From Kribbella steppae (GTDB lineage Bacteria > Actinomycetota > Actinomycetes > Propionibacteriales > Kribbellaceae): DNA of 64,000 nucleotides. The stretch lies in NCBI RefSeq assembly GCF_004342025.1, contig NZ_SLWN01000001.1, positions 293,972 to 357,971 of the forward strand, written 5' to 3'. Shown one piece after another: positions 4,980-63,045 of the stretch (positions within the stretch are counted from its first letter, which is position 1; every line of letters begins with the position of its first letter). The position numbers were made by a program, and so were the translations under genes. The notes under the pieces were generated by a model. It made no database searches. It was not told where the DNA came from and worked only from the letters and a program-made list of their open reading frames with translations.

Positions 4980-6056
4980 TCAGGCGGTGGCGGCGGTCAG
5001 GTCGACCTTGGGCTCCGCGAAGTGGCAGGCGGCGGCGTGGCCGGAGCCCGACTGCGGCTTGGCCTCGAGCGGCGGCTCGTGCGTCACGCAGATGTCCTCG
5101 GCCTTCCAGCAGCGGGTCCGGAACCGGCAACCGCTCGGCGGGTCGATCGGCGAGGGTACGTCGCCGACCAGCCGGATCCGCTCCTTCGGCGGGACACCGC
5201 GGATGGTGCCCAGGTCGGGAGCGGCGGACAGCAGCGCCTGCGTGTACGGGTGCTGCGGAGCGCCGTAGATCTGGTCCCGCGCGCCCTGCTCGACGATCTT
5301 GCCCAGGTACATCACCGCGACCCGGTCACAGAAGTGCCGGACCACGCCCAGGTCGTGGGCGATGAAGACGAACGCGATGCCGAGGTCGCGGCGCAGGTCC
5401 TCCAGCAGGTTCATCACCTGGGCCTGGATGGACACGTCCAACGCGGACACCGGCTCGTCGGCGATGATCACCTCGGGCTCGACCGCGAGCGCCCGGGCGA
5501 TGCCGATGCGCTGCCGCTGGCCGCCGGAGAACTCGCTCGGGTACCGGTTGTGGTGCTCTGGGTTCAGGCCGACCCGCTCCAGCAGCTCCTGGACCCGGTC
5601 GAGCTCCTTGCCCTTCTTGACCAGGTTGTGCACCCGCAACGGCGTACTGATGATGTTGCTGACCGTCTGCCGCGGGTTCAGCGAGCTGTACGGGTCCTGG
5701 AAGACGATCTGCAGCTCCCGGCGGAACGGGCGCAGTTCCCGCTCCTTCAGCCGCGCGATGTCGGTGCCCTTGAAAATGATCTGCCCCGCGGTCGGGGTCA
5801 GCAGCCGGGTGATCATCCGGCCGGTGGTCGACTTGCCGCAGCCGGACTCGCCGACCAGCCCCAGGCTCTCGCCGGCGTTCAGGTCGAAGCTGACCCCGTC
5901 GACGGCCTGGACGACCTTCTTGGTCCGGCCCAGACCGGCCGCTTCCTTGATCGGGAAGTGCATCTGCAGATCGCGGACCTGCAGCAGCGGGGTCCCGGAA
6001 TCGGGCGCCGAGCTCGCCCCGGGAACGCTGTCGATCTTGCGCACAGTCTTGCTCAT
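4980..6056 (-). CDS. Oligopeptide/dipeptide ABC transporter ATP-binding protein (DppF/OppF type)
   Basis: A 358-aa ATPase, last gene of a five-gene importer operon. Walker A GESGCGKS (69-76), signature FSGGQ (176-180), Walker B VIIADEP (196-202). The C-terminal Cys-containing extension (GCRFRTRCW) is typical of the Opp/Dpp ATPase family. It pairs with the DppD-type ATPase just upstream, as these importers use a heterodimeric motor. Substrate cannot be read from the ATPase: members of the family carry peptides, nickel or oligosaccharides. Confidence 0.93.
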   Translation of the reverse strand: MSKTVRKIDSVPGASSAPDSGTPLLQVRDLQMHFPIKEAAGLGRTKKVVQAVDGVSFDLNAGESLGLVGESGCGKSTTGRMITRLLTPTAGQIIFKGTDIARLKERELRPFRRELQIVFQDPYSSLNPRQTVSNIISTPLRVHNLVKKGKELDRVQELLERVGLNPEHHNRYPSEFSGGQRQRIGIARALAVEPEVIIADEPVSALDVSIQAQVMNLLEDLRRDLGIAFVFIAHDLGVVRHFCDRVAVMYLGKIVEQGARDQIYGAPQHPYTQALLSAAPDLGTIRGVPPKERIRLVGDVPSPIDPPSGCRFRTRCWKAEDICVTHEPPLEAKPQSGSGHAAACHFAEPKVDLTAATA

Positions 6057-6074
6057 CTCTCTCCTCAGCCCCTG

Positions 6075-7241
6075 TCAGCCCAGTCTCGGCGCGACCTCGG
6101 CCTCGTAGATCGAGGCCTTGTCGTGCAGGTGACAACGGGACGTGTGGGCACCGGCACCGTCGACCGGCAGCAGCTCCGGCAGATCAGTTGTGCAGCGCTC
6201 GCCCTTCACCCGGTCCGTGTACGGACAGCGCGGGTTGAAGGAGCAGCCGGTGGGCAGGTTCAGCAGGCTCGGCGGCAGGCCCTTGATCGGCCGCAGCTTC
6301 TCGGTCGCGGCCGAGACGGTCGGAATCGACTCGAGCAGACCCCAGGTATACGGCATCCGCGGCCGGGCCAGCACGTCCTCGGCGGTGCCGTACTCGACGC
6401 AGCGACCGGCGTACATCACCAGGACGTCGTCGGCCATCTCGGCGACCACACCGAGGTCGTGCGTGATCAGCACGATCGCGGAGCCGAACTCCTTCTGCAG
6501 GTTGTTCAGCAGGTCCAGGATCTGTGCCTGGACGGTCACGTCGAGCGCGGTGGTCGGCTCGTCGGCGATGACCAGCTTCGGGTCGTTGACCAGGCCCATC
6601 GCGATCATCGCGCGCTGCCGCATACCGCCGGAGAACTCGTGCGGGTACTGCGAGAAGCGGCGCTGCGGGTTCGGGATGCCGACCAGGTCGAGCATCTCCA
6701 GCGCACGCTTCTTGGCGGCGTCCTTGGACACCTTGTTGTGCACCCGGTACGCCTCGGTGATCTGGTTGCCGACCGTGTACAGCGGGTGCAACGAGGACTG
6801 CGGGTCCTGGAACACCATCGCCACCGCGTCGCCGCGGACCTTCATCAGCTCGTTCTCCGGCAGGCCGACGATCTCGTCGCCGCCGAGCCGGATCGAGCCG
6901 GTGATCCTGGTCCGCTTGCGGTCGTGCAGGCCCATCACGGCCATGCTGGAGACCGACTTGCCGGAGCCGGACTCACCGACGATCGCCAGCGTGCGGCCGA
7001 GCGGGACCGAGTAGCTCAGCCCGTTCACCGCGCTGACCACGCCGTCCGCGGTCGGGAACTTGACGGTCAGGTCCTCGACCACCAGGTACGGCGTCTCGCC
7101 GCTGGGGTTGATCAAACCCTGCCGGCGCTCGCGGGTGGCGATCGCCGGGCCTCGCTTGGCCTCGGCCGCCGGCGTCTCCGGCTGGCCGGCTGCGCTCTCG
7201 ACCATGGTGTCCTTCCGGTCCTCAGGGGCGGGTGTGCTCAC
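6075..7241 (-). CDS. Oligopeptide/dipeptide ABC transporter ATP-binding protein (DppD/OppD type)
   Basis: A 388-aa ATPase with Walker A GESGSGKS (89-96), FSGGMRQRAMIAM signature and VIADEPTTALD Walker B, plus the C-terminal GCSFNPRCP motif. The GTG start overlaps the stop of the upstream permease gene (GTGA, 7238-7241), so translation is likely coupled. The first ~50 residues are a poorly conserved extension; an internal ATG at 7205 is a possible alternative start. Confidence 0.92.
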   Translation of the reverse strand: MSTPAPEDRKDTMVESAAGQPETPAAEAKRGPAIATRERRQGLINPSGETPYLVVEDLTVKFPTADGVVSAVNGLSYSVPLGRTLAIVGESGSGKSVSSMAVMGLHDRKRTRITGSIRLGGDEIVGLPENELMKVRGDAVAMVFQDPQSSLHPLYTVGNQITEAYRVHNKVSKDAAKKRALEMLDLVGIPNPQRRFSQYPHEFSGGMRQRAMIAMGLVNDPKLVIADEPTTALDVTVQAQILDLLNNLQKEFGSAIVLITHDLGVVAEMADDVLVMYAGRCVEYGTAEDVLARPRMPYTWGLLESIPTVSAATEKLRPIKGLPPSLLNLPTGCSFNPRCPYTDRVKGERCTTDLPELLPVDGAGAHTSRCHLHDKASIYEAEVAPRLG

Positions 7242-8230
7242 GAAAGCCTCACCCGCGGGTCGATCAGGCTGTAACCGATGTCCACCAGGAAGTTCATCAC
7301 AACGATCATCACCGATGCGACAAGCACTGTGCCCATGATGACCGGCAGGTCATAGCTGTTCAAGCTGTCAAGGACCAGCACGCCGAGGCCCGGCAGGTCG
7401 AAGATCCGCTCGGTGAAGATCGCGCCGGCCAGGCTGGCGGCGACGTCCAGACCGAAGATCGTGACGACCGGGATCAGGCCCGAGCGCAGCGCGTGCTTGT
7501 AGGTGACCTTCCGGTCCGACAGGCCCTTGGCCCGGGCGGTCCGGATGAAGTCCTCGCTCAGCGTCTCGACCATGGAGCCACGGGAGTAGCGAGCGTAGGA
7601 AACACAACTGTAGATGCCGAGCACCAGCCAGGGTGTCAACAGACCCGCGAACCACTTCCCGATGTTCTCCGACGGCGGCGTCCAGGACCCGCGCGGGAGG
7701 ATCGGGTAGAGGATGGTCAGGTAGAGCGAAATCATCAGGGCGACGATGTAGTACGGCACCGAACTGAGCACCAGGGTGCTGGTCATCAGGCCCCGGTCGC
7801 CCACCGTGCCGCGTCTCTTCGCGGCCATCGAGCCGACGAAGACACCGACGGTGAGGACGATGACGGCGTACCCCATCACGAGCGACAGCGTCACCGGGAA
7901 CCGCGCGGAGAGCATCTCGAGCACGGGGCGGTCGTTCTTGAACGAGTAGCCCAGGCAGGGTGCGTCACAGTGCCTGACGACACCGGACGTGGTGAAGTCG
8001 CGGCCGGCGAAGATGCCCGCGGTGTACTCCGCGAATTGCTGCGCCTTCGGCTGGTCCAGATGCAGGTTTGCCTTGATCTCGTTGTATCGCTGCTCGGTGC
8101 AGTTCCGCTCACCACAGATCGCACCGGCCGGGTCGGTCGGCGCGATGAAGAAGAGCGCGAAGGTCGCGGCGAGCGTGACCAATATGACACTGAGCGCGCT
8201 GACCAGCCGGCGCGCCACGAAATAGATCAC
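7238..8230 (-). CDS. Oligopeptide ABC transporter permease (DppB/OppB type)
   Basis: A 330-aa inner-membrane permease with about six helices and the cytoplasmic EAA loop (EDFIRTARAKGLSDRKV) that docks on the ATPases. GTG start at 8230 with GAGGAGA eight bases upstream. A large extracytoplasmic loop follows helix 1 and contains four Cys (CGERNC and CDAPC patterns), which is usual for actinobacterial members. Confidence 0.92.
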   Translation of the reverse strand: MIYFVARRLVSALSVILVTLAATFALFFIAPTDPAGAICGERNCTEQRYNEIKANLHLDQPKAQQFAEYTAGIFAGRDFTTSGVVRHCDAPCLGYSFKNDRPVLEMLSARFPVTLSLVMGYAVIVLTVGVFVGSMAAKRRGTVGDRGLMTSTLVLSSVPYYIVALMISLYLTILYPILPRGSWTPPSENIGKWFAGLLTPWLVLGIYSCVSYARYSRGSMVETLSEDFIRTARAKGLSDRKVTYKHALRSGLIPVVTIFGLDVAASLAGAIFTERIFDLPGLGVLVLDSLNSYDLPVIMGTVLVASVMIVVMNFLVDIGYSLIDPRVRLS

Positions 8231-8252
8231 GGGGTTTGTCTCCTCACCGATC

Positions 8253-8286
8253 GGAGTGGTGCCCGGACGAATCCGGGCACCACTCC
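8253..8286 (-). terminator. Intercistronic stem-loop after the binding-protein gene
   Basis: A perfect 14-bp stem (GGAGTGGTGCCCGG with its complement, loop ACGAAT) separates the binding-protein gene from the downstream permease gene. It has no U-tract and probably sets the ratio of receptor to membrane subunits. Confidence 0.7.
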
Positions 8287-8328
8287 ACCGTTCAGATCAG
8301 ATCTACTACCTCAGGTGCGAGGAGGAGA

Positions 8329-10089
8329 TCAGGGCTGCTTCAGGTACATCGACGTGAACTCGGGCATGCCCTGCGTCATGTCGTTGACCGCGTGGCCGAT
8401 GTTCTTGCCGATCGGGGAGTTGGTCGCGCTGTAGTACAGCGGCAGAGCCGGGAGGTGCTTCTCCAGGATGTCCTTGTCGACCTTCGTCCATTCCTTCAGC
8501 TGCGCGTTCGGGTCCATCGCCGCGACCTTGTCGATCTCGGCGTCCAGCGCCTTGTCCTGGAGCTGACCGATGCTGTTGCCCAGGGCAATCGCGTCGGACT
8601 TGAACAGGACCGGGAACCAGCTGGTGCCGGACGGCCAGTCGGAGCACCAACCGGTCGGGGACTTGCCGATGTTGACCGGAGCGTCCTGGTCACCGATGAA
8701 GGTGCGGTACTTGGCCTTCGGAACACCGATCGCCTTGACCTTGAAGCCGGCCTTCTCGTAGACCTGCTTGCGCAACTGGGTGACCTGGGTCGAGATCTTG
8801 TCGTCGATCTGGTAGTACCAGCTCAACTCGAAGTTCGCCTTGCCCAGCTTGGCCAGCTCCGACTTGACCTCGGCGGCGACGGCGTCGTCCTCGGCGCCCT
8901 TGCCGGTTCCGGTCAGGCCCGCCACCTCGTACTTCTCGAAGCCCGGAACGGCCGGCGGCAGGATCGTCGAAGCCGGCGGCGAGTCGTTCGGGTTCAGACC
9001 GGCGACCTTACGCCACGAGTCGTACGGGTGCGCCTTGGCGATCAGCTTGCGCACCTCGAGCGGGATCTTCCGGGTGTCCATCGGGTAGGTGATGGTGCAC
9101 GGACCCTGGCCCTTGACGAGCTGAGCCTGGTCCTTGACCTCGGGCAGCAGGCTGACGTCGAGGTTGGTGTAGTTCAGCGCGTTCGCGTCCGGACCGGCGC
9201 TGGCCAGCACCTGGCGCTGGGCCTTGATCAGGTCCTGGCTGAACTTGAAGTCCCAGCCATCGACGTACTGGTGCCGCACCGGGTCGGTGGCCGGGTCCCA
9301 GTTCGGGTTCTTCGACAGCTTGAGCTGCGTACCCGGGGTGTACGAGTCGACCTTGTAGGGGCCGGTCGCCATCGGGCGCTGCTCGTAGTTCTTCTGGGTG
9401 TCCTTGGCCTGCGGGATCGGCGTGAACATCGGGAACGCCGCGTAGAACGGCAGGTCGTCGAACTTCTTCGCCAGCTTGATGACCAGGGTGCTCTCGTCCG
9501 GCGTCTCGACACCGGCGTAGTTCGCGCCGTTCGCGCCGTACGGACCCTTGTACTTGTCGCCGTCCTTGAAGAACTGCAACTGGTACGTCGGTCCGGCGTC
9601 GTACAGGTCGTGCGCGAAGGACCGCTTGATCGCGTACGCGTAGTCGGCGGCCTTGACCGGCGTGCCGTCCATGTACTTGATGCCCTGCTTCAGCTTGAAC
9701 GTCCAGGTCAGGCCGTCGGCCGACTTGGTGCCCAGGTCCTCGGCCAGGTCCGGCACGAGGACCGGCTTGCCGGTGCCCTCGTCCAGCCGGTACTGGGTCA
9801 GGGCCCGGTACATCAGCTTGCCGATCTGGTTGCCGTCGACGTAGTAGATGTTCGTCGGGTCGAAGGTGTCCGGCGTGACGTCGGACAGGACGGTGATCGT
9901 GCCGCCCTTCTTCGCGCCATCGACCTCCTTGGCCGGCCCCTTGGCAGTCGGGTCAGTGGCCTTCTCCTGCGCGGTTTCATCGCCGGTGCCGCCACCACCG
10001 CCAGAGTCGTTGCTCGACGACGGGCTGCCGCATGCCACGGCGGCCAGCATGACCGTCGCCGCTACTGCGGTGATCCGTTTCCACTGCAT
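8329..10089 (-). CDS. Oligopeptide ABC transporter substrate-binding lipoprotein
   Basis: A 586-aa SBP_bac_5 family receptor. The start at 10089 (MQWKRITAV) is chosen because AAAGGAG lies ten bases upstream and it gives a clean lipoprotein signal with Cys20 (AAVAC). A Ser/Gly-rich linker follows. Motifs such as ADGLTWTFKLKQGIKYMDGTPVKA are characteristic of peptide-binding proteins. It lies between the two permease genes, an order (C - receptor - B - D - F) different from the second transporter in this window. Confidence 0.92.
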   Translation of the reverse strand: MQWKRITAVAATVMLAAVACGSPSSSNDSGGGGGTGDETAQEKATDPTAKGPAKEVDGAKKGGTITVLSDVTPDTFDPTNIYYVDGNQIGKLMYRALTQYRLDEGTGKPVLVPDLAEDLGTKSADGLTWTFKLKQGIKYMDGTPVKAADYAYAIKRSFAHDLYDAGPTYQLQFFKDGDKYKGPYGANGANYAGVETPDESTLVIKLAKKFDDLPFYAAFPMFTPIPQAKDTQKNYEQRPMATGPYKVDSYTPGTQLKLSKNPNWDPATDPVRHQYVDGWDFKFSQDLIKAQRQVLASAGPDANALNYTNLDVSLLPEVKDQAQLVKGQGPCTITYPMDTRKIPLEVRKLIAKAHPYDSWRKVAGLNPNDSPPASTILPPAVPGFEKYEVAGLTGTGKGAEDDAVAAEVKSELAKLGKANFELSWYYQIDDKISTQVTQLRKQVYEKAGFKVKAIGVPKAKYRTFIGDQDAPVNIGKSPTGWCSDWPSGTSWFPVLFKSDAIALGNSIGQLQDKALDAEIDKVAAMDPNAQLKEWTKVDKDILEKHLPALPLYYSATNSPIGKNIGHAVNDMTQGMPEFTSMYLKQP

Positions 10090-10130
10090 GGTCGTGTTTC
10101 TCCTTTTCTGCCGCTGGGGCAATCGCCGCA

Positions 10131-11138
10131 CTACCGGCGAGTCTTGGGGTCGAAGGCGTCGCGGACGGCGTCGCCGAGGAGGGCCAGTGCGAGCACCAGC
10201 ATGGTGATACCGATCACCGGCAGCCACAGGAACAAGGGGTAGGCCTTGAACCAGTTGGTGGCGACGGCGATCGTCTGGCCCCAGGACGGGATCGGTTCAA
10301 CCAGACCGACACCGAGGAAGGACAGACCGGCCTCCGCTGTCACGTACGCGGGCAGCGACAGCGATGCCGAGATGACAATCGGAGCCACCAGGTTCGGTAG
10401 CAGTTCCTTGAACAGTACCTGGCGGGTGGGAACGCCGATCGCCTTGGCAGCCAGGACGAACTCGCGCTCGCGCAGCGACAGCACTTCGCCGCGGATGATG
10501 CGCGCCAGCCCGGCCCAGCCGAAGAACGACAGCACGAAGATCAGTACGTAGAACCTTGTCGACGCCTGTTGCTCCGGCGAGAGGTTGAACGAACCGCCGC
10601 GCCAGGACTCGACGATCGGAACCATCGCGATCGCGAACAGCAGGTACGGCAGGCTCAGGACGAAGTCGATGAACCAGGAGATGACCCGGTCCACCCAGCC
10701 GCCGAGGAAGCCGGCCAGCAAGCCCATCACGACACCGACGACGGTGCCGAACAGGGTCGCGGTGAAGGCGACGATCAGCGACGGGCGGGCGCCGTAAACC
10801 CAGCGGGCGAAGTTGTCCCGGCCGGTCTTCGGCTCGACGCCGAACCAGTGCGTACTGGTCGGCCCGCTGATCGGGAAGCCGAACTCGTCGACCAGGTCGG
10901 TGTGGAAGGTGCCGTAGTCCTGGCCCTCCAGCTTGGACAGCAGCGGCGCGAAGACGGCGACCAGAATGAACAGCAGCACGACGGTCGCGCAGATCACGGC
11001 CACCTTGTCCTTGCGCAACCGGTCCATCGCGATCCGGGTCGGGGACTTGCCATGCGCAACCGCGGCACCACGTACAGGTTCCGCCGACGCCGGGTGTTCC
11101 TCGACGCCGACCGAGGCGTCCGGGGGACCAATTGTCAT
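10131..11138 (-). CDS. Oligopeptide ABC transporter permease (DppC/OppC type)
   Basis: First gene of the importer operon, 335 aa. An N-terminal cytoplasmic region of about 40 residues is followed by six helices and the EAA loop (EFVLAAKAIGVPTRQVLFKELLPN region). The start at 11138 has GGAG six bases upstream; the open frame extends further upstream but without family similarity. The family signature GRDNFARWVYGAR is present. Confidence 0.9.
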   Translation of the reverse strand: MTIGPPDASVGVEEHPASAEPVRGAAVAHGKSPTRIAMDRLRKDKVAVICATVVLLFILVAVFAPLLSKLEGQDYGTFHTDLVDEFGFPISGPTSTHWFGVEPKTGRDNFARWVYGARPSLIVAFTATLFGTVVGVVMGLLAGFLGGWVDRVISWFIDFVLSLPYLLFAIAMVPIVESWRGGSFNLSPEQQASTRFYVLIFVLSFFGWAGLARIIRGEVLSLREREFVLAAKAIGVPTRQVLFKELLPNLVAPIVISASLSLPAYVTAEAGLSFLGVGLVEPIPSWGQTIAVATNWFKAYPLFLWLPVIGITMLVLALALLGDAVRDAFDPKTRR

Positions 11139-20308: not shown

Positions 20309-22279
20309 ATGCCGACCTCTGTATCCCTGCCGGCCCTCGGGGAGAGCGTCACCGAAGGAACCGTCACCCGCTGGCTCAAGCAGGTCGGCGACACGGTTGC
20401 CGTTGACGAGCCCCTGCTGGAGGTCTCGACCGACAAGGTCGACACCGAGATCCCCTCGCCGGTGGCCGGCACCCTGCTCGAGATCAAGGCCGCCGAGGAC
20501 GAGACCGTCGAGGTCGGCGCCGAACTCGCCGTGATCGGCGACGCCGGCGAGAGCTCCGGCTCTTCCGCTCCAGCCGAGGCACCCGCTGAGGCCCCGGCCG
20601 AGCAGGCCCCGGCTGCCGAGGCTCCGGCCGAGCAGGCCCCGGCTGCCGAGGCTCCGGCCGAGCAGGCCCCGGCTGCCGAGGCTCCGGCCGAGCAGGCCCC
20701 GGCCGAGTCGGCGCCCGCTCAGGAAGCTCCCGCGGCCGAGGCCGAGCAGGCCCCCGCGCCGTCGCAGGCCTCTTCCGACTCCTCGGCGCCCGCGGAGGCT
20801 CCGGCCGCATCCGGTGGTTCGGGTACGTCGGTCACCCTGCCGGCGCTGGGCGAGAGCGTCACCGAGGGCACGGTCACCCGCTGGCTGAAGCAGGTCGGCG
20901 ACGACGTGGCGGTCGACGAGCCGCTGCTCGAGGTCTCGACCGACAAGGTCGACACCGAGATCCCCTCGCCGATCGCCGGCAAGCTCCTGGAGATCAAGGT
21001 CGCCGAGGACGAGACGGTCGAGGTCGGCGCTGAGCTCGCCATCGTCGGCTCGGGCGACGCCGCCCCGGCGTCCTCCCCCGCACCCGCCGACGCCCCCGCC
21101 GAGTCGGCACCCGCCGAGTCGGCACCTGCCGCCCAGGCTGAGGCTCCGGCTGCTGCCCCGGCTCCGCAGGCCGCGCCCGCGCAGGCTCCCGCCGCTGCAC
21201 CGGCCCCGCAGGCCGCACCGGCTCAGGCTCCGGCCGCAGCCGCTCAGCCGCCGGCCGCCGCACCCGCTCCGCAGGCCGCACCGGCACAGGCTCCCGCAGC
21301 TCCCGCTCCGGCCGCATCGGCGCCGGCTGCTTCCCCGAATGGCTCCACCTCTGAAGGCCCGAACTACGTCACCCCGCTGGTGCGCAAGCTCGCCGCCGAG
21401 CATGAGGTCGACCTCAACGCCGTACAGGGCACCGGCGTCGGCGGCCGGATCCGCAAGCAGGACGTCATCGCCGCCGCCGAGGCCAAGAAGGCCGCCGCCG
21501 CCGCACCGGCCGCCGCGCCGGCTGCTGCTGCCCCGGCCGCCGCTGCCCAGGCCGCTCCGATCAGCCCGCTGCGCGGCACCACCGAGAAGATGAGCCGGAT
21601 CCGCAAGGCGATCGCGTCCCACATGGTCAACTCGCTGAAGGTCTCGGCCCAGCTGACCACCGTGGTCGAGGTCGACGTCACCGAGATCGCCAAGCTGCGG
21701 AACGCGAAGAAGGCCGAGTTCGAGGCCCGCGAGGGCGTCAAGCTGTCCTTCCTGCCGTTCTTCGCCCTGGCCGCGATCGACGCGCTGAAGCAGTACCCGA
21801 AGCTCAACGCCTCGATCGACGACGAGAAGGGCGAGATCACGTACCACGCCGCCGAGCACCTCGGCATCGCCGTGGACGTGGAGAAGGGCCTGATGGTCCC
21901 GGTCGTGCACAACGCCGGCGACCTGAACATCGCCGGCCTGGCGAAGAAGATCGCCGACCTGGCCGAGCGCACCCGCACCAACAAGGTGCTGCCGGACGAG
22001 ATGGCCGGCGGTACTTTCACCATCACCAACACCGGCAGCCGTGGCGCGCTGTTCGACACGCCGATCCTGAACCAGCCGCAGGTCGGCATGCTCGGTACCG
22101 GCGCCGTGGTCAAGCGTCCGGTCGTGATCACCCACCCGGAGCTCGGCGAGACGATCGCGATCCGGCAGATGGTGTACCTGGCGCTCACCTACGACCACCG
22201 CCTGGTCGACGGTGCCGACGCGGCCCGCTACCTGACCGCCGTCAAGCAGCGCCTCGAAGAGGCCCAGTTCGACGTCTGA
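20309..22279 (+). CDS. sucB: 2-oxoglutarate dehydrogenase E2, dihydrolipoyllysine succinyltransferase
   Basis: A 656-aa multidomain acyltransferase. Two lipoyl domains (about 1-76 and 171-246) each carry the lipoylation motif [11 protein letters not shown] with Lys43 and Lys213. They are joined by long Ala/Pro/Glu linkers. A peripheral-subunit-binding domain ([17 protein letters not shown], about 353-388) follows, then the catalytic domain from about 430, ending in [10 protein letters not shown] with His630 and Asp634. The first linker is built on a 30-bp DNA repeat. Actinobacteria also use this protein as E2 for pyruvate dehydrogenase, so the substrate range may be wider than succinyl. Confidence 0.95.
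20591..20700 (+). repeat. 30-bp in-frame tandem repeat in sucB
   Basis: Three exact copies of a 30-bp unit at 20611-20640, 20641-20670 and 20671-20700, preceded by a degenerate partial copy. Each codes for ten residues of the Pro/Ala/Glu swinging-arm linker ([10 protein letters not shown] type). Confidence 0.9.
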
Positions 22280-51452: not shown

Positions 51453-53006
51453 TCAGTCGGATTTCGGTCGGATGGAGAACATCACGGCCAGGACGAAGGC
51501 CGGGATCGCCAGCACCCAGGTGGAGCTGAGGCCGAGGAGGACCGGGGCCAGGCAGAGCAGCAGCAGATCGAAGCCGCGGATGGGCTGGGAGAACATGCCG
51601 GGTGGGATGGCGCCCATCGGGGAGGCGACCAGAGGCCCTGAGTACGACGGCGGTCGCGCTGAGGCCTGGCGTACGGCGCCAGCGATGATGCCGGCGGCAA
51701 CGGCGAAGGTGGTCGCGCCGTCGCCCAGGGCAGGGAAGGCGAGCAAGGCCCACAAAAGGGTGAAGCCCGCGGGGACGACCGCCATGATGACCCGGAGTTC
51801 GCGAAGATCCATGCCGAGGGCCCGGACCAGCCCGGTGGACCGGCAGACCGACCTCAGCCCATCCATCAGCGGGCGGATGGCGACGAAGCCGGCGAACCCG
51901 GCCGCGACCGGGACGAGGACCTGGACGCCCGTGCCCGCAACGGCATACGGGACGACCAGCAACGCACACCCGATGATCAGCCGTCGAGGCCACCGCAGGA
52001 TCCGCAGGAACTCCCGGTAGACAACTGCCCCACCGTGGGACCCGCGACCCCGCCGCGACCGGACGCGCCCCTTCAACCGCCAGTGCCGACCGGCGACGAC
52101 GTCGGCCAGCATGCTGATGTCCAGGCTGCTGGCCGCACCCGCCAGCCCGGCCAGGAGCTCTCCCCCGGCGATCACAGTGGTTCGGGTCAGATTGGCGAGG
52201 GTCCGCGCGGTGACGATCACCAACGCCAGGACCACGACCAGACAGACCACGCCCACCACCAGGAACCGCGCGGTCTCAGCTGTCAGCCAGGAATCGACGG
52301 ACCGGACGTCCTCGAAGGTGAGGATCACGTTCGCGGTCTGCTGCACGTCGTTGGAGTCACGCTGGGTCGCGAGCCAGACCGCGGGGATCGCGGCGGCGAC
52401 CAGCAGGACATCGGCGACGCGCAGCGTCCACTTGGCGCGCACCGCGGACTGCTGCGCCCAGACCGTCACACACGCGGCACCGACCAGCAGCGAAGCCGTC
52501 AGCACCGAGGCTTCCCCGATCGACCGCAACTGTGCGCCGAGCAGTGCCCAGGAGATCACCGAGGCCAGCGCGCCGGCCACGGCCACGCTCCCGATCATCC
52601 ACCAGTACGCCGGCCGCAGCAGGGCCGTCCGGTTGACCGGAGTGGCGAGCAACCAGAAGCCTGCTGCTCGCGACGCCGACACGGGTCCGACGCTCAGCAG
52701 CACCCGCAACGTCGTTGCTACCAGCAATGGCACGAGGATCCAGGGCAGGTAGTAGGCCAGATCCAGGCAGGCCCGCGACGTACAGTGCGCCGCGTTCTCG
52801 TTCAGGTGCCGGACGACGTTACCGCCGGTCGCGCCGACCATCGCGAGCGTGAAGATGACCAGGTAGACGTTCTCGAAGACCTGCCAGAACGAGCGGTCCG
52901 CGTGCCTGCGCCGGGTCGTGCGCATCCAGGCCCGCACCGATCGCGACGCCGGGATCGCACCGAAGTCAGCCGGATCGAAGACGACCGGCCCCTCAGCAGA
53001 GGTCAT
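51453..53006 (-). CDS. Large polytopic membrane protein, putative ABC exporter permease
   Basis: A 517-aa protein with about 12 hydrophobic segments, partner of the ATPase encoded upstream. No sequence signature of a defined permease family that I recognise, but the pairing with a lone ATP-binding protein suggests an ABC-2-like exporter in which both membrane halves are in one chain. ATG at 53006 with GGGAGG just upstream. The start overlaps the end of the small open frame carried by the repeat at 53003-53161. Confidence 0.72.
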   Translation of the reverse strand: MTSAEGPVVFDPADFGAIPASRSVRAWMRTTRRRHADRSFWQVFENVYLVIFTLAMVGATGGNVVRHLNENAAHCTSRACLDLAYYLPWILVPLLVATTLRVLLSVGPVSASRAAGFWLLATPVNRTALLRPAYWWMIGSVAVAGALASVISWALLGAQLRSIGEASVLTASLLVGAACVTVWAQQSAVRAKWTLRVADVLLVAAAIPAVWLATQRDSNDVQQTANVILTFEDVRSVDSWLTAETARFLVVGVVCLVVVLALVIVTARTLANLTRTTVIAGGELLAGLAGAASSLDISMLADVVAGRHWRLKGRVRSRRGRGSHGGAVVYREFLRILRWPRRLIIGCALLVVPYAVAGTGVQVLVPVAAGFAGFVAIRPLMDGLRSVCRSTGLVRALGMDLRELRVIMAVVPAGFTLLWALLAFPALGDGATTFAVAAGIIAGAVRQASARPPSYSGPLVASPMGAIPPGMFSQPIRGFDLLLLCLAPVLLGLSSTWVLAIPAFVLAVMFSIRPKSD

Positions 53007-53161
53007 CGGGCCTCCCGGCCTGGACCGAGGAGCCCGGTCATGGGGCCCCCGGCCTGGACCGAGGAGCGCAGGGAGCGAAGCGACCGGAGTGACGAGGGAA
53101 GGCCGGGAGCTAGGCCCCATGACCACGCCGGCGCCGAAGGCCCGGCCAAAAGCACCGTCAT
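53003..53161 (-). repeat. Intergenic repeat copy 1, with 52-codon micro-ORF
   Basis: A repeat shared with 60248-60373. This copy is 155 bp from ATG to ATG and contains a 35-bp internal duplication. On the minus strand it encodes a 52-aa frame starting MTVLLAGPSAPAWSWGLA. The ATG overlaps the ATPase stop (ATGA) and the TGA overlaps the next gene's ATG (ATGA). Inverted GGGGCC/GGCCGGGAG arms allow a long hairpin. Whether the peptide is made is unknown. Confidence 0.75.
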
Positions 53162-53799
53162 GGGAGCGGTGTCAGGGTGACGACGGAGTCGGCGACGGCT
53201 TCGACCAGGGCCGGGTCGTGGCTGGCGAAGAGGATCGCCGTACCGGACTGCTTCTCCGCGATCAGGCGATCCGACAACCACTGCACGCCGTCGGTGTCCA
53301 GCCGCGCCTCGGGCTCGTCCAGCACCATCAGCGTGCGCGGGCGGACCAGCGCCGTCGCCAACGCGAGGCGACGGCGCTGACCCGAGGACAGCGATCCCGG
53401 CAGCTGATCGGCGGCCGGCAGCAGCCCGATGTCGTCGAGGAGGGTGTCGACCAGGTCCTCCGGCTCCGGGTTGCCGTGGGCGCGGGCGAGCAGGTCCAGG
53501 TGCTCGGCCGCGGTCAGGTCCGGGAAGAAGTCGAGGTCGTCGAGCAGCGTGGCGACGTCGCGTCGTACCGTCTCGGCGCGCTCGTCGATCGGCTGGCCGT
53601 CGAGCAGGATCTTGCCCGCTGCCGGTTCGGCCGAGCCGACGATGCATTTCAGCACGGTCGTCTTGCCGGCGCCGTTCGGCCCGACCAGGGCGATCGCCTG
53701 ACCAGCGGCCAGGGTGAACGTCAGACCCTCGATGACCGGGCGGTCGCCGTACTTGTGCTGCAACTCCTTCACGCTCAACCGAGCCGCGGCCTTGCTCAC
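53158..53799 (-). CDS. ABC transporter ATP-binding protein
   Basis: A 213-aa ATPase: Walker A GPNGAGKTT, signature LSSGQRRRLALA, Walker B LMVLDEPEARLD, switch His in ASHDP. Short, single domain, like CcmA-type exporter ATPases. GTG start at 53799 overlaps the methyltransferase stop (GTGA). Its stop overlaps the ATG of the repeat-borne micro-ORF. Confidence 0.9.
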   Translation of the reverse strand: MSKAAARLSVKELQHKYGDRPVIEGLTFTLAAGQAIALVGPNGAGKTTVLKCIVGSAEPAAGKILLDGQPIDERAETVRRDVATLLDDLDFFPDLTAAEHLDLLARAHGNPEPEDLVDTLLDDIGLLPAADQLPGSLSSGQRRRLALATALVRPRTLMVLDEPEARLDTDGVQWLSDRLIAEKQSGTAILFASHDPALVEAVADSVVTLTPLP

Positions 53800-57635: not shown

Positions 57636-58456
57636 CGAGCCTCCCTAGCCCGACGCCGCCGGTCCCACTCCGGATTGATCCGGGGTACGGCGGCCAGCAA
57701 CGTCTTCGTGTAGTCGTCGCGGGGTTCGCCGAACACCTGGTCGCGTGACCCCAGCTCCACGATTCTGCCCTTGTTCATCACCGCGACCCGCTGCGAGATC
57801 TGCCGTACGACGGCCAGGTCGTGCGCGATGAAGATGTAGCTGAACCCGCTCTCCCGCTGCAGCCGCATCAGCAGCTGAAGCACCTGGGCCTGGATCGACA
57901 CGTCGAGGGCGGACACCGCCTCGTCGCAGATCACCAGCTTCGGGTTCACCGCGAGTGCCCGGGCGATCCCGATCCGCTGCGCCTGACCACCGGAGAACTG
58001 GGCCGGGTACCGCTGGCAGTGGTCCGGGTTCAGCCCGACCCGCTCCATCAGCTCCTGCGCGAACGCGCGCCGGCCGCCCGCAGGCGCGATCCCTTGGTAG
58101 GTCAGCGGCGCGGTGATGATCCGCTCAACCGTGTACCGCGGGTTCAGCGACGAGAACGGATCCTGGAACACCACCTGCACGTCGTTCCGGAACCGGGCCA
58201 GCTCCTTGCCACTCGCCCGCGTCACGTCCTGCCCGTCGAACTCGACCGTCCCGCTGGTCGGCTCCAGCAACCGGGCCGCGATCCGCGCGGTGGTCGACTT
58301 CCCACTGCCCGACTCCCCCACGATCGCCAACGTCTCGCCCAGCTCGACATCGAAGCTGACGTTGTCCACCGCGGTGAACGCCGACTTGCGGGCCGCCAAA
58401 CCTTCGCCCCGACTGACGAACTGCTTGGTCAGCTCACGAACCTTGAGCAACGTCAT
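57632..58456 (-). CDS. Oligopeptide ABC transporter ATP-binding protein (OppF type)
   Basis: A 274-aa ATPase: GESGSGKST Walker A, FSGGQAQRIGIARALAV signature, LVICDEAVSALD Walker B (Pro replaced by Ala after DE), FIAHDLAVV switch. It lacks the long C-terminal Cys extension of the first transporter's DppF. ATGA overlaps join it to both neighbours. Confidence 0.92.
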   Translation of the reverse strand: MTLLKVRELTKQFVSRGEGLAARKSAFTAVDNVSFDVELGETLAIVGESGSGKSTTARIAARLLEPTSGTVEFDGQDVTRASGKELARFRNDVQVVFQDPFSSLNPRYTVERIITAPLTYQGIAPAGGRRAFAQELMERVGLNPDHCQRYPAQFSGGQAQRIGIARALAVNPKLVICDEAVSALDVSIQAQVLQLLMRLQRESGFSYIFIAHDLAVVRQISQRVAVMNKGRIVELGSRDQVFGEPRDDYTKTLLAAVPRINPEWDRRRRAREAR

Positions 58457-59271
58457 ACGGCCCTACTTTCGGCTGGCACCGCGTCATCGATCCTCGGTAC
58501 GGCGTCCAGCAGCGTCCGCGTGTAGTCGTGCTGCGGATTCGAGAACACCTGCTCGGCCGTGCCGTACTCGACCGCGTCGCCTTCGCACATCACCAGCACC
58601 CGCTGGGCGATCGAGCTGATCACGGCCAGGTCGTGGGTGATGAAGATCATCCCGGTGCCGGTGGTCGACTGCAGCTCGGCCAGCAGCTCCAGGATCTGCG
58701 CCTGCACGGTGACGTCGAGTGCGGTCGTCGGCTCGTCCGCGATCAGCAGCGACGGCGAGCAGCACAACGCCATCGCGATCATGATTCGTTGCCGTTGGCC
58801 ACCGGAGAACTGGTGCGGATAATGGTCGATCCGCCGGGCCGGATCGGGAATGCTGACCCGTTCCAGCGCCTCGATCGCCACCCGCCGGGCCGCCCGGCGC
58901 GAACCACCGCGATGCGCCCGGTACATCTCCTCGATCTGCAGCCCCACCGTGTAGTAAGGATTCAGGGACGACAATGGATCCTGGAACACCATCGAGATCA
59001 GGTTGCCGCGCACCGACTGCAGTTCCCGGTCGGACTGCCCGAGCAACTCCGTGCCGTCCAGCCGGATGCTCCCCGTGGTCCGCGCGCCCCGAGGGAGCAA
59101 CCCGAGTACGGCGAGCGCCGTCATCGACTTGCCCGACCCGGACTCGCCCACGATGCCGAGCGTGTCGTCGCGGCCGACCGTGAAGGACACGTTCTTCACC
59201 ACGTCCACCGGACCACCCCCGGTCGGCAACGTGACAGTCAGGTCCTCCACCACGAACAGGTCATCCTTCAT
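58453..59271 (-). CDS. Oligopeptide ABC transporter ATP-binding protein (OppD type)
   Basis: A 272-aa ATPase: GESGSGKSM Walker A, FSGGQRQRIMIAMAL signature, LLIADEPTTALDV Walker B. The start at 59271 overlaps the permease stop (ATGA, 59268-59271). Shorter than usual OppD at the C-terminus (no GCxFxxRC motif). Confidence 0.92.
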   Translation of the reverse strand: MKDDLFVVEDLTVTLPTGGGPVDVVKNVSFTVGRDDTLGIVGESGSGKSMTALAVLGLLPRGARTTGSIRLDGTELLGQSDRELQSVRGNLISMVFQDPLSSLNPYYTVGLQIEEMYRAHRGGSRRAARRVAIEALERVSIPDPARRIDHYPHQFSGGQRQRIMIAMALCCSPSLLIADEPTTALDVTVQAQILELLAELQSTTGTGMIFITHDLAVISSIAQRVLVMCEGDAVEYGTAEQVFSNPQHDYTRTLLDAVPRIDDAVPAESRAV

Positions 59272-60251
59272 GACGTGGTCACCCTCACTCTCGGGTCGAG
59301 GGCGGTGTAGACGAGGTCGACGACGACGTTGCCGATGACAACGAAGAAGGCGGCCAGCAGGGTGACCGCCATGATCACCGGCTGGTCGTTCTTGGCGATC
59401 GAGTCGGCTGCCATCTTGCCGATCCCGTTCAGCCCGAACACGGTCTCGGTGATCAGCGCACCGCCGAGCAGGCCGGCGAAGTCCATCCCGAAGATCGTGG
59501 TGATCGGGGTCAGGGCCGGCCTGAGTGCGTGCCGCCGCATGATCAGCGGCCGGCTCAGGCCCTTGGCCCGGGCGGTCCGGAAGTAGTTCTCGGACAACGT
59601 GTCGATCACGTTGGAACGGGTCAACCGCGCGTACAGACAGGCATAACCGACGGCCAGGACCGTCCACGGCATGATGTACGACTCGAACCACAGCATCGGG
59701 TTGTCCGCGAACGCCGGCGCCGACGGGAACGGCAGCACCTGCAGCTTCACCACCAGCACGAACTGGAGCACGAGCGCCAGCACGTAGTTCGGCACACTCA
59801 CACCGCCGAGCGCGAGCGCCATCGCCGTACGGTCCCACCAGGTGCCCTGTTTGATCGCACTGATCAGACCGCCGATCACGCCGGCCAGCAGCCACAGTAC
59901 GGCGGCGCCGACGGCGACCGTGATGCTGACCGGGAGCCGCGCGGTGATCATCTTCCAGACCGACTCGTTGGTCTGGAAGCTGTAACCCAGACAGGGCGCC
60001 GAGCAATGCACGGACCCGTAGTCGCGGCCGACGAAGATGCCCTGCAGGAACTCCCAGAACTGGGTCAGGATCGGCTGGTTCAGACCCAGCACGTCGCGAA
60101 TCGAGTCGATGCGCTCCGGCGTACAGGTCTTGCCGCAGATCATCACCGCGGGATCCGGGGACAGCTTGAAGAAGATCAGGTAGGTGAACAGACAGACGGC
60201 CAGCAGGATGAACACCACTCCCCCAAGACGACCGAGTACATAGCGGGTCAT
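59268..60251 (-). CDS. Oligopeptide ABC transporter permease (OppB type)
   Basis: A 327-aa permease with six helices and EAA loop (ENYFRTARAKGLSRPLIMRRHALRPAL region). The ATG at 60251 (MTRYVLGRLGG) overlaps the stop of the micro-ORF in the repeat. Without the repeat it would overlap the OppC stop directly. Confidence 0.92.
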   Translation of the reverse strand: MTRYVLGRLGGVVFILLAVCLFTYLIFFKLSPDPAVMICGKTCTPERIDSIRDVLGLNQPILTQFWEFLQGIFVGRDYGSVHCSAPCLGYSFQTNESVWKMITARLPVSITVAVGAAVLWLLAGVIGGLISAIKQGTWWDRTAMALALGGVSVPNYVLALVLQFVLVVKLQVLPFPSAPAFADNPMLWFESYIMPWTVLAVGYACLYARLTRSNVIDTLSENYFRTARAKGLSRPLIMRRHALRPALTPITTIFGMDFAGLLGGALITETVFGLNGIGKMAADSIAKNDQPVIMAVTLLAAFFVVIGNVVVDLVYTALDPRVRVTTS

Positions 60252-60373
60252 GGGGCCTCCCGGCCTGGACTGAGGAGCGCAGGGAGCGAAGCGACTGGAG
60301 TGACGAGGGAAGGCCGGGAGGCAAGGCCCCATGACCACGCCGGCGCCGAAGGCCCGGCCAAAAGCACAGTCAT
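60248..60373 (-). repeat. Intergenic repeat copy 2, with 41-codon micro-ORF
   Basis: 122 bp from ATG to ATG. It encodes a 41-aa frame starting MTVLLAGPSAPAWSWGLA and ending GREAP. The ATG overlaps the OppC stop and the TGA overlaps the OppB ATG, both as ATGA. Arms 60250-60266 and 60311-60332 (TGGGGCCTCCCGGCC type) are complementary apart from a small bulge. The element is the only interruption in an operon whose other junctions up to the peptidase are ATGA overlaps. Confidence 0.78.
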
Positions 60374-61326
60374 GCGGCCTCTCCCTGGTCGACGACCGAG
60401 CGGATCTTGTCGCCGAGGACGGTCAGCGACAGCACGGTGAGGAACAGGAACACTCCGGGGATCGCGAAGAACATCGGGTCGACCGAGTACCAGCTCACCG
60501 AACTCGCGATCATCTGGCCCCAGGACGCGGTTGGCGGTGAGACACCGACGCCGAGGAAGGACAGGCCGGCCTCGGTCCCGATGTAGCCGGGAATGGCCAG
60601 TGTCGTCATCACGATGATCGAGCCCCGCAGGTTCGGCAGGATCTCCCGGAACACCACCGCGGAGTCCTTCGCACCGGACGCCTTGGCCGCCTCGACGAAC
60701 TCACGATTGGCCAGCGTCATCGTCTGACCGCGGATCACCCGGGCCAGGTACGGCCAGCCGAACGCGCTGATCACGATCACCAGCAGCACCGGGCGGTTCC
60801 CGGCCGGCAGCGAGGACAGGATCGCGATCATGAAGATCAGCGCCGGGAACGCCATCAGGAAGTCCATCAGCCGCGAGATCACCTGGTCGACCCAACCGCG
60901 GTAGAACCCGGCCAGCATGCCGAACACGACCCCGAGGATCCCGGTCAGCAGGGTCGCCGACAGCGAGATCGTGATCGAGACGCGGGCGCCGTACACGATC
61001 CGGGCGAACAGGTCGCGACCGTTCTGCGGCTCGACGCCGAACCAGTGGTCCGCGCTGATCCCGCCGAGCGCGCCGTGCGGGACGCCGCCGAGATCTGAGT
61101 TGATCGCGGCGGAGTCGAACTCGTACGGCCCCCAGCCGCTGATTTTGGTGATCAGCGGCGCGGCGACCGCCATCAGAAGCACGATCGCCAGGAACAGCAC
61201 GCAGGCCAGCGCGCCCTTGTCCCGGGTGATGGTGGTGAGGATCCGCCGGCTCGAGGTCGGGGGACCGCCGGCCGGAGCCGGGGTCCCCACCTCCTCGACC
61301 TCGAGCAGTACCGGGCTCGCGGTCAT
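60370..61326 (-). CDS. Oligopeptide ABC transporter permease (OppC type)
   Basis: A 318-aa permease: N-terminal cytoplasmic stretch, six helices, WFGVEPQNGRDLFARIVYGAR, and the EAA loop REFVEAAKASGAKDSAVVFREIL. It starts three bases after the binding-protein stop. Its stop overlaps the repeat-borne micro-ORF. Confidence 0.92.
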   Translation of the reverse strand: MTASPVLLEVEEVGTPAPAGGPPTSSRRILTTITRDKGALACVLFLAIVLLMAVAAPLITKISGWGPYEFDSAAINSDLGGVPHGALGGISADHWFGVEPQNGRDLFARIVYGARVSITISLSATLLTGILGVVFGMLAGFYRGWVDQVISRLMDFLMAFPALIFMIAILSSLPAGNRPVLLVIVISAFGWPYLARVIRGQTMTLANREFVEAAKASGAKDSAVVFREILPNLRGSIIVMTTLAIPGYIGTEAGLSFLGVGVSPPTASWGQMIASSVSWYSVDPMFFAIPGVFLFLTVLSLTVLGDKIRSVVDQGEAA

Positions 61327-61329
61327 CGG

Positions 61330-63045
61330 CTACTTCCCGGCGTCCGCGAGACCGACCGAGACCAGGTCGATCCCACCGGAGAACCCGTCGTGCAGGTAGG
61401 CGCCGGCGATGTTGGTGCCGACCAGCATCAGCACCTTCTCGTACAGCAGCGGGACGACCGGGGCGAGCGCCATGATCTGCTTGTCCAGTTCGCCGTACGC
61501 CGCGTTCGCCGCGGTCACGTCGGTCAGCTTGGCGATCTCGTCGATCTTCGCGTTGACGCCCTTGTCGTTCAGCTGGGACAGGTTCGAGTTGCCCTTGGTG
61601 GTGATGTTGCGGCCGTCGAACAGCGGCGGCAGGAACGTCGCACCGGACGGCCAGTCCGGGCACCAGCCGGTGATCGCCATGTCCTTCTGCTGTGACGGCG
61701 TACCGATCACCTCGTAGTACGTCGAGGTGTCGATCGGGTTGATCTTGACGGTGATCTTCAGCGGCTCCAGCGCCTGCTGGACCGCCACCGACATCGCCTG
61801 CATCTTCGGCTGTGTCCGGGTGTCGAGGGTCAGGGTGAAGCCGTTCGCGACGCCGGCCTCGGTGAGCAGCGCCCGGGCCTTCTCGATGTCGCCCTTGTGG
61901 TCCGGGCTCGGGTACGGGTCGTAGTCCACCCGGCCGGCCACGGTCGGCGGCTGGATGCTGGTGGCGATGTCGGCCAGCGTCGAACCGCCGACCGCGTCGC
62001 GCACGGTCTGCTTGTTCACCGCGAGGTTGATCGCCTGCCGGACCCGGACGTCGTTCAGCGGCTTCTTGGTGATGTTCAGACCCATGTACGTCGTACAGCC
62101 GCCGAGACCGGTCATCGTGCGCTGCTTGAGCTGCGGGGTCTGGATCCGGGCCACCGAGGCGGCCTGGACGGTGCCCGCGATCGCGTTGATATCGGTGCCC
62201 TGGCCGGCGATCATCCGCTCGTCGATGGTGGCCGGGTCGAGACCGAAGGTCCACTGGAACGCGTCCGGGTTCGCAGTCCGGACCTCATCGGTCTTCTTGT
62301 CCCACTTGTCGTTGCGGACCAGCTTGAGCGACGCGCCCGGCTTGTACTCGGCCAGCTTGTACGGACCGGACGAGATCGGCTTGCTGTCCAGTTGGTTGCC
62401 CGCGCCCTGGCCCTTCGGCACCGGTACGAAGGTGTTCTGCGCGACCACGCTGCCGAAGTCGGCGTACGGCTTCTTCAGGTGGAAGACGATCGTCTTCGCA
62501 TCCGGTGTCGCGATCGTCGGCAGGTCACCCGACTTGTACGGCCCCTGGTAGGTCGCCGGCGCGTCGATGATCTGCTTCGCGTACGGCGATCCGATGCCGA
62601 CCTCGGGGTCCCAGGCCCGGGACACACCCCACTTCACGTCCGCGCTGGTGATCGGCGCACCGTTCTCGAAGAACAGCCCGTCCTTCAGCGTGAAGGTCCA
62701 GGTCTTACCGCCCTCGGACGGCTTGCCGGTGTCGGTCGCCAGGTCGGGGACGATCTTGGTGCCGTCGGCACCGGGTGCGGCGCCCTGAGTGGTCAGGGTC
62801 CGGTAGATCAGCCGGTAGAAGTTGTTGACACCACCGTCGAAACCCCGGGCGGGGTCGAGGTGGGAGAAGCCCGCGTTCGCGAGCACCTGGAGCGTTCCGC
62901 CCTTCGCGGTCTCGCCGCCCGGACCGGCCGACGAGTCGGCGGCACCGGTCGCGCCACCACCCGAGCAGGCGCTGAGCACCAGCACTCCGGACAGCGCGAG
63001 CCCCAGTAGTGCTCCGACGCGGGGCACTCGCATGGATCTCTTCAT
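61330..63045 (-). CDS. Oligopeptide ABC transporter substrate-binding lipoprotein
   Basis: A 571-aa SBP_bac_5 receptor with a lipoprotein signal (LVLSAC, Cys27) and an Ala/Gly/Ser linker. Typical strings: TWTFTLKDGLFFENGAPITSADVKWGVSRAWD and ISSGPYKLAEYKPGASLKLVRN. First gene of the second importer operon (receptor - C - B - D - F - peptidase). The GH127 gene ends 12 bp upstream on the same strand, so it may be read with it. Confidence 0.93.
   Translation of the reverse strand: MKRSMRVPRVGALLGLALSGVLVLSACSGGGATGAADSSAGPGGETAKGGTLQVLANAGFSHLDPARGFDGGVNNFYRLIYRTLTTQGAAPGADGTKIVPDLATDTGKPSEGGKTWTFTLKDGLFFENGAPITSADVKWGVSRAWDPEVGIGSPYAKQIIDAPATYQGPYKSGDLPTIATPDAKTIVFHLKKPYADFGSVVAQNTFVPVPKGQGAGNQLDSKPISSGPYKLAEYKPGASLKLVRNDKWDKKTDEVRTANPDAFQWTFGLDPATIDERMIAGQGTDINAIAGTVQAASVARIQTPQLKQRTMTGLGGCTTYMGLNITKKPLNDVRVRQAINLAVNKQTVRDAVGGSTLADIATSIQPPTVAGRVDYDPYPSPDHKGDIEKARALLTEAGVANGFTLTLDTRTQPKMQAMSVAVQQALEPLKITVKINPIDTSTYYEVIGTPSQQKDMAITGWCPDWPSGATFLPPLFDGRNITTKGNSNLSQLNDKGVNAKIDEIAKLTDVTAANAAYGELDKQIMALAPVVPLLYEKVLMLVGTNIAGAYLHDGFSGGIDLVSVGLADAGK

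Follow-up and report, generated by a model that had tools for sequence, protein, structure and literature searches.

A short palindromic repeat at gene starts in Kribbella with the features of a mobile, translation-coupling element

The window analysed here, a 64,000-nt stretch of Kribbella steppae DNA, contains two copies of a short repeat located at gene starts. Judged from its sequence, the repeat is most probably a non-autonomous mobile element of Kribbella that targets start codons, behaves like the MIRU of mycobacteria, and couples the target gene to a leader open reading frame (ORF). This reading is built on observed insertion sites, empty sites, reading frames, a covarying stem, and a phase bias.

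Anatomy of the element

All features of both copies are on the minus strand. Copy A (53003–53161) runs from a left ATGA (53161-53158) to a right ATGA (53006-53003), with an A-to-A length of 155 (2 mod 3), and contains a micro-ORF of 52 codons plus stop, the product of which is MTVLLAGPSAPAWSWGLAPGLPSSLRSLRSLRSSVQAGGPMTGLLGPGREAR. At the left ATGA, the start codon of the target, the stop of the upstream gene for an ABC transporter ATPase (53158–53799; domain match to PF00005) overlaps the micro-ORF start. At the right ATGA, the micro-ORF stop overlaps the start of a membrane-protein gene (51453–53006; domain match to PF19814, DUF6297). The first-pass annotation had described a 155-bp copy with 52 open codons and an ATGA overlap with the next gene, and this is confirmed on the minus strand.

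Copy B (L006; 60248–60373) has an A-to-A length of 122 and a 41-codon micro-ORF, and lies between two ABC permease genes. Specifically, the 3’ part of one permease gene (60370–61299; PF00528) finishes at the left ATGA of copy B, and the 5’ part of the other (59352–60251; PF00528/PF19300) begins at the right ATGA. The first 18 codons of the two micro-ORFs are identical, as had been claimed before. Copy A shifts frame after codon 18 and is back in the original frame in its last codons (LLGPGREA, versus LLSPGREA in copy B). A DNA search with the copy A stretch finds 47 similar places in the 9.15-Mb genome (best E 2.9e-78), and in this family copy A is a typical member that has been rearranged.

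Two side observations concern other repeats of the window. Two alike oligopeptide-type ABC transporter gene sets, recognised from repeat families D1, D4, D6, D7, D8, and D10, lie ~52 kb apart (5217-10850 and 57683-61671). The other is a long coding repeat at 20315-21529, Ala/Pro/Glu-rich and built on a 15-bp unit (repeat families D2 and D3).

It is very improbable that the micro-ORF encodes a functional small protein. A 40-41 aa consensus is conserved in many copies, but the frame is shifted internally in copy A, internal deletions to 10-35 codons keep only the phase, no Pfam match is found above the cut-off, and the core of the element is equally conserved where it is non-coding.

Read on the leader strand, the element begins with NTGAC-N-GTGCTTTTGGCC or GTATTGATGCC, followed by a small hairpin. 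Next come the left arm of a palindrome, GGTCATGGGGC, a variable spot, and CTCCCGGCC. These are followed by a conserved core, CTTCCCTCGTCGCTCCGGTCGCTTCGCTCC, and the right arm, GGCCGGGAGGCCCC-ATGACC, after which the gene continues. The right arm thus holds, inside the palindrome, an SD-like GGGAGG four bases before the ATG, together with the start codon of the gene. In copy A, the left arm (GGTCATGGGGCCTAGCTCCCGGCCTT; 53099–53124) contains the anti-SD and anti-start sequences, and the core/loop (GCCTTCCCTCGTCACTCCGGTCGCTTCGCTCC; 53072–53103) is strongly conserved, also in other genera. The inner right arm (53036–53054) includes an internal ATGA (53041-53038), which is out of phase in this copy (D1=120). 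A 35-bp tail (53003–53037) carries an SD-like GGGAGG and the codon at which the gene now starts.

The left and right arms pair over about 20 bp, and the pairing covaries. The first letter of the start codon and the facing arm letter form T-A in 139 copies, C-G in 23, and another combination in 6, so that a GTG start faces CAC in the opposite arm. The next stem pair is G-C in 148 copies, C-G in 9, and T-A in 6. Copy A folds as RNA no more stably than shuffled sequences do (z -0.56), and copy B has a z of -1.89; folding energy alone is not decisive because the DNA is so GC-rich. The covariation could also arise from DNA-level requirements of transposition instead of RNA function.

A covarying stem that hides an SD and a start codon, preceded by a leader ORF, is what would be expected of a conserved regulatory RNA leader or attenuator that responds to a sensed signal and has spread by duplication. 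We regard this explanation as improbable, since an Rfam search with the element gives no relevant family, the genes behind the element are unrelated to each other, the sites are empty in close relatives, and the leader peptide tolerates frameshifts.

Several copies are compound. In the 242-type copies (L020, L024, L025, and L029), one element is located inside the loop of another. If the two cores of this type are fused, with the loss of 76 bp, the product is exactly the 166-type (L005). This type has a 44-bp tail and closes onto the gene through a 41-codon ORF linked to one of 15 codons. A tail of this kind is also found in L001 (copy A), L002, L003, and L004, in which the first segment measures 120 (0 mod 3) and a single ORF of 52–56 codons closes onto the gene; their 155, 164, and 167 types are shortened or shifted versions of the 166-type. 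The tail of copy A is therefore probably the remnant of an outer, nested copy, a history of nesting and then recombination that is suggested by the forms seen. Thus, the 35-bp segment at 53003-53037, previously called an internal duplication, is present, but probably did not originate by local duplication.

Insertion sites, distribution, and mobility

The junction between the ATPase and membrane-protein genes is empty in 27 of the 27 relatives in which it was located, and there an ATGA or GTGA overlap joins the two genes directly. Copy A was therefore inserted into a junction that was already coupled. For copy B, 21 genomes could be compared: three carry the element at its site, and the site is empty in the other 18 (for example, GGAGGCAGC-ATGACCCGGTATG). 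When filled, it has lengths of 122 (L006) and, in two relatives, 131 and 113 (L339 and L344), all 2 mod 3. The presence of the element at this permease site in three Kribbella species may go back to a single ancient insertion or to recurrent insertions at a hot spot.

The same preference is seen across the genus. Exact termination on a gene start is seen in 190 of 215 Kribbella copies. A left NTGA is present as well in 171 of the 190, and in 103 of these 171 its TGA is also the stop of the upstream gene. The insertion point is a few bases inside the gene start, after NTGAC or NTGAG, very often at the ATGA/GTGA overlap of co-directed genes. Locus L013 separates the two ends. Its relatives start mostly with GTGAG or ATGAG, and the filled locus reads GTGAGC at its left end and ATGACC at its right end; the left start is therefore that of the target, and the right start seems to be borne by the element.

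A target-site duplication was considered as the source of the right start codon and rejected, because the start letters at the two ends show no significant association (p=0.09) and because the ends of L013 differ as described. No clear duplication was seen among the copies examined. As regards features expected of a MITE, the right part is palindromic and no parent IS was found. An autonomous parent was sought among sites that have one end of the element, right or left, without the other. These turned out to be chance matches or copies that had been truncated or had lost internal sequence, and a reading through their flanking sequence brought no recognisable transposase to notice.

The hairpins, the short size, and the preferred tetranucleotide (TGAC/ATGA) at the left junction recall REP/RAYT or IS200/IS605-type hairpin elements, a class mobilised by Y1 transposases that target a tetranucleotide. 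Mobilisation by a Y1/RAYT enzyme was rejected, and this origin is hardly plausible, because the Y1 transposase domain (PF01797) is absent from the Kribbella steppae genome and from 37 of 38 Kribbella genomes, being present in only one.

About 1 kb separates the sole Y1 transposase found in the genus from the ortholog of L013’s gene (L352 G031:C7:51482 and L390 G031:C7:50255). At this locus the repeat is present in the Kribbella steppae genome and absent in the Y1-bearing relative (G031).

The Kribbella steppae genome has about 60 copies of the element. Specifically, a 32-base core pattern matches 59 sites in it, versus 0 for a reversed control pattern, so that the repetition greatly exceeds what chance would give. 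Of 58 relatives searched, 30 have matches, nearly all of them from Kribbella, and the family is present in many congeners at varying copy number; the copies were collected as a sample, by pattern search. The genera among the matches listed are Kribbella, Thermocatellispora, Acrocarpospora, Nonomuraea, Actinomadura, and Virgisporangium. A sample of 147 further genomes of the class contains no match to the core pattern, and the distribution is therefore patchy. Searches of plasmid and phage records gave no match to the element.

In Thermocatellispora, Acrocarpospora, Nonomuraea, Virgisporangium, and Actinomadura parmotrematis, the core is flanked by other palindrome arms (e.g., GGCTTGGGCGCC and GGCCTCGGGGCC) that lack ATGACC (core copies L108, L111, L114, L115, L131, L138, L145, L151, L154, L155, L159, L160, L163, L164, L166, L173, L176, and L186). 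The location at start codons may therefore be a derived habit of a wider actinomycete repeat. In Actinomadura barringtoniae, all three copies have D=119 and are closed, though the left end differs.

Reading phase of the leader ORF

In 162 of the 171 two-ended copies, a ribosome that starts at the left end is led onto the gene start, through either one ORF or two ATGA-linked ORFs. With later additions, the collection comprises 225 gene-associated loci in 156 clusters of orthologous genes, not all of which are independent. Of the nested or tailed copies, L005, L028, L031, and L058 close through two linked ORFs, and L001-L004 through one long ORF.

Changes of length tend to preserve the phase. 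Among 26 length variants (one per ortholog cluster, non-nested, curated by hand), 18 are 2 mod 3, 5 are 1 mod 3, and 3 are 0 mod 3 (binomial versus 1/3, p=2e-4). The three 0 mod 3 variants (L030, L353, and L383) run in frame into the gene and form an N-terminal fusion. After large deletions, seven of nine copies retain an A-to-A length that is 2 mod 3 (92, 89, 59, 44, 44, 32, and 29), and the other two, with lengths of 27 and 36, are in-frame fusions. When indels of ±3, 6, 9, and 18 are left out, the excess of 2 mod 3 is not significant (7/15, p=0.20), a filter that drops in-phase events only and hence is conservative. The CGCTCC repeats in the core may promote changes of 9 and 18 bp.

Stop codons are distributed in the same sense. 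They occur in the micro-ORF frame of 1 of 144 standard copies and in the other two frames of 77 and 80, counts that reflect few ancestral mutations. The element consensus is nearly stop-free in several frames; the openness of copy A over 52 codons, noted in the first-pass annotation, is real but thus means little alone.

Copies that stand before genes out of phase, which in part match the case named at the outset as one that would speak against coupling, do occur, as a minority: L128/L229 (D=121), L130 (D=118, orthologs 119), L373 (D=118), L076, and L220. In L005, L009, L053, L064, L217, and L253 the phase is kept, and the apparent failures were boundary miscalls of the automatic pass. In three copies that have lost the left end (L112, L224, and L103), the micro-ORF frame is reached by a TGATG/TAATG restart at an internal ATG.

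The argument that started this analysis was that two independent changes, to 155 and 122, both leave the length at 2 mod 3, and that selection acts on coupling rather than on the peptide. The lengths are correct, but the two copies share ancestry and the tail (44 or 35 bp) itself adds 2 mod 3. A tailed copy therefore closes automatically in two of three phases, and the two-copy comparison is weaker than it looks. Weak by itself, it is now replaced by the family-wide closure, the 18 of 26 length variants and 7 of 9 deletions in phase, the avoidance of stops in one frame, and the three lengths of the copy B site, all of which argue for selection on coupling.

The same data bear on a purely selfish element with a site preference, in which phase and openness would come from a master copy, host expression would be unaffected, and copies at starts would survive through a good SD and ATG. 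Most copies do have one of two inherited lengths (119 and 122), the core is conserved even in genera whose arms carry no ATGACC, and the right arm by itself offers GGGAGG four bases before an ATG. We nevertheless consider this explanation rather unlikely, because length variants and large deletions stay 2 mod 3 or turn into in-frame fusions, a single orthologous site is found at 122, 131, and 113, and stops avoid the micro-ORF frame.

Proposed mechanism and comparison with known systems

In the preferred reading, a start-codon-targeted element with a coupling leader, the element would be mobilised in trans and would insert at a gene start, and the old start codon would then begin a leader ORF of ~40 codons. 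The gene would receive its Shine-Dalgarno sequence (GGGAGG) and its start codon (ATGACC) anew from the right arm, with the stop of the leader (ATGA) overlapping this start. The ~20-bp stem would hide the SD and the start unless a ribosome translates the leader. Specifically, a ribosome delivered by the upstream gene, or recruited by the old SD, would start at the left codon, translate the leader, and open the stem; it would then stop at the ATGA and reinitiate on the gene. Because of this leader-driven restart, an insertion would cost the host little, and the effect on the host gene is presumably near neutral.

It is possible, though on the doubtful side, that the element is more than tolerated, namely that it acts as a mobile translational gate. 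The stem would make the target gene strictly dependent on the leader, selection would keep the gate in dozens of unrelated operons as a genus-wide, insertion-borne layer of translational control, and the element would be moved by an enzyme that reads the core shared among actinomycetes.

The start-codon-targeted leader element most resembles MIRU of mycobacteria. MIRU are described in a 2025 review (PMC12548453, citing Supply et al. 1997) as apparently mobile repeats at start codons, with an internal ORF coupled at -4 spacing, that may minimise damage to the target gene. The Kribbella element is likewise short and dispersed, lies at start codons, and has an internal ORF that overlaps the downstream gene, and in many cases the upstream gene, by 4 nt. 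It differs in size, being about 116-122 bp, versus 53 and 77 bp for the MIRU units of senX3-regX3 (PMC4213456). The covarying palindrome that holds the SD and start codon, the left hairpin, the nested copies, and the cross-genus core set it apart from MIRU as so described. Because the element is non-mycobacterial and was compared with MIRU by description, we do not file it as MIRU; among the matches listed, it occurs in Kribbella and a few genera of Streptosporangiales and Micromonosporales. By this analogy, it looks like a new, palindromic variant of the MIRU kind, in a family apparently separate from MIRU.

Rickettsia palindromic elements (PMC10969869) are also small palindromic repeats that insert in genes and keep the reading open. 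They fuse in frame inside proteins, whereas the Kribbella element forms a separate leader, for which in-frame fusion is an occasional end state only (L030, L353, and L383). REP/REPIN sequences with RAYT and IS200/IS605-derived MITEs share with it small hairpin repeats and a preferred short target; the coding-phase behaviour, the start-codon location, and a genome free of Y1 transposase distinguish the Kribbella element from them. In bicistronic designs and uORF coupling, as outlined in PMC12548453, a short leader ORF brings ribosomes to an ATGA-overlapped gene and opens structure, in a manner to which the Kribbella leader would be analogous. Unlike bicistronic designs, the Kribbella element is natural, mobile, and repeated in many operons.

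Survival at start codons by means of an ATGA-coupled leader ORF, the trick of MIRU, thus appears to exist also outside mycobacteria, here with a stem that holds the SD and the start codon. The independent insertions, empty sites, nested copies, and deletions amount to a natural mutagenesis experiment on translational coupling, and the genus can be read for the lengths, overlaps, and structures that a coupled junction tolerates.
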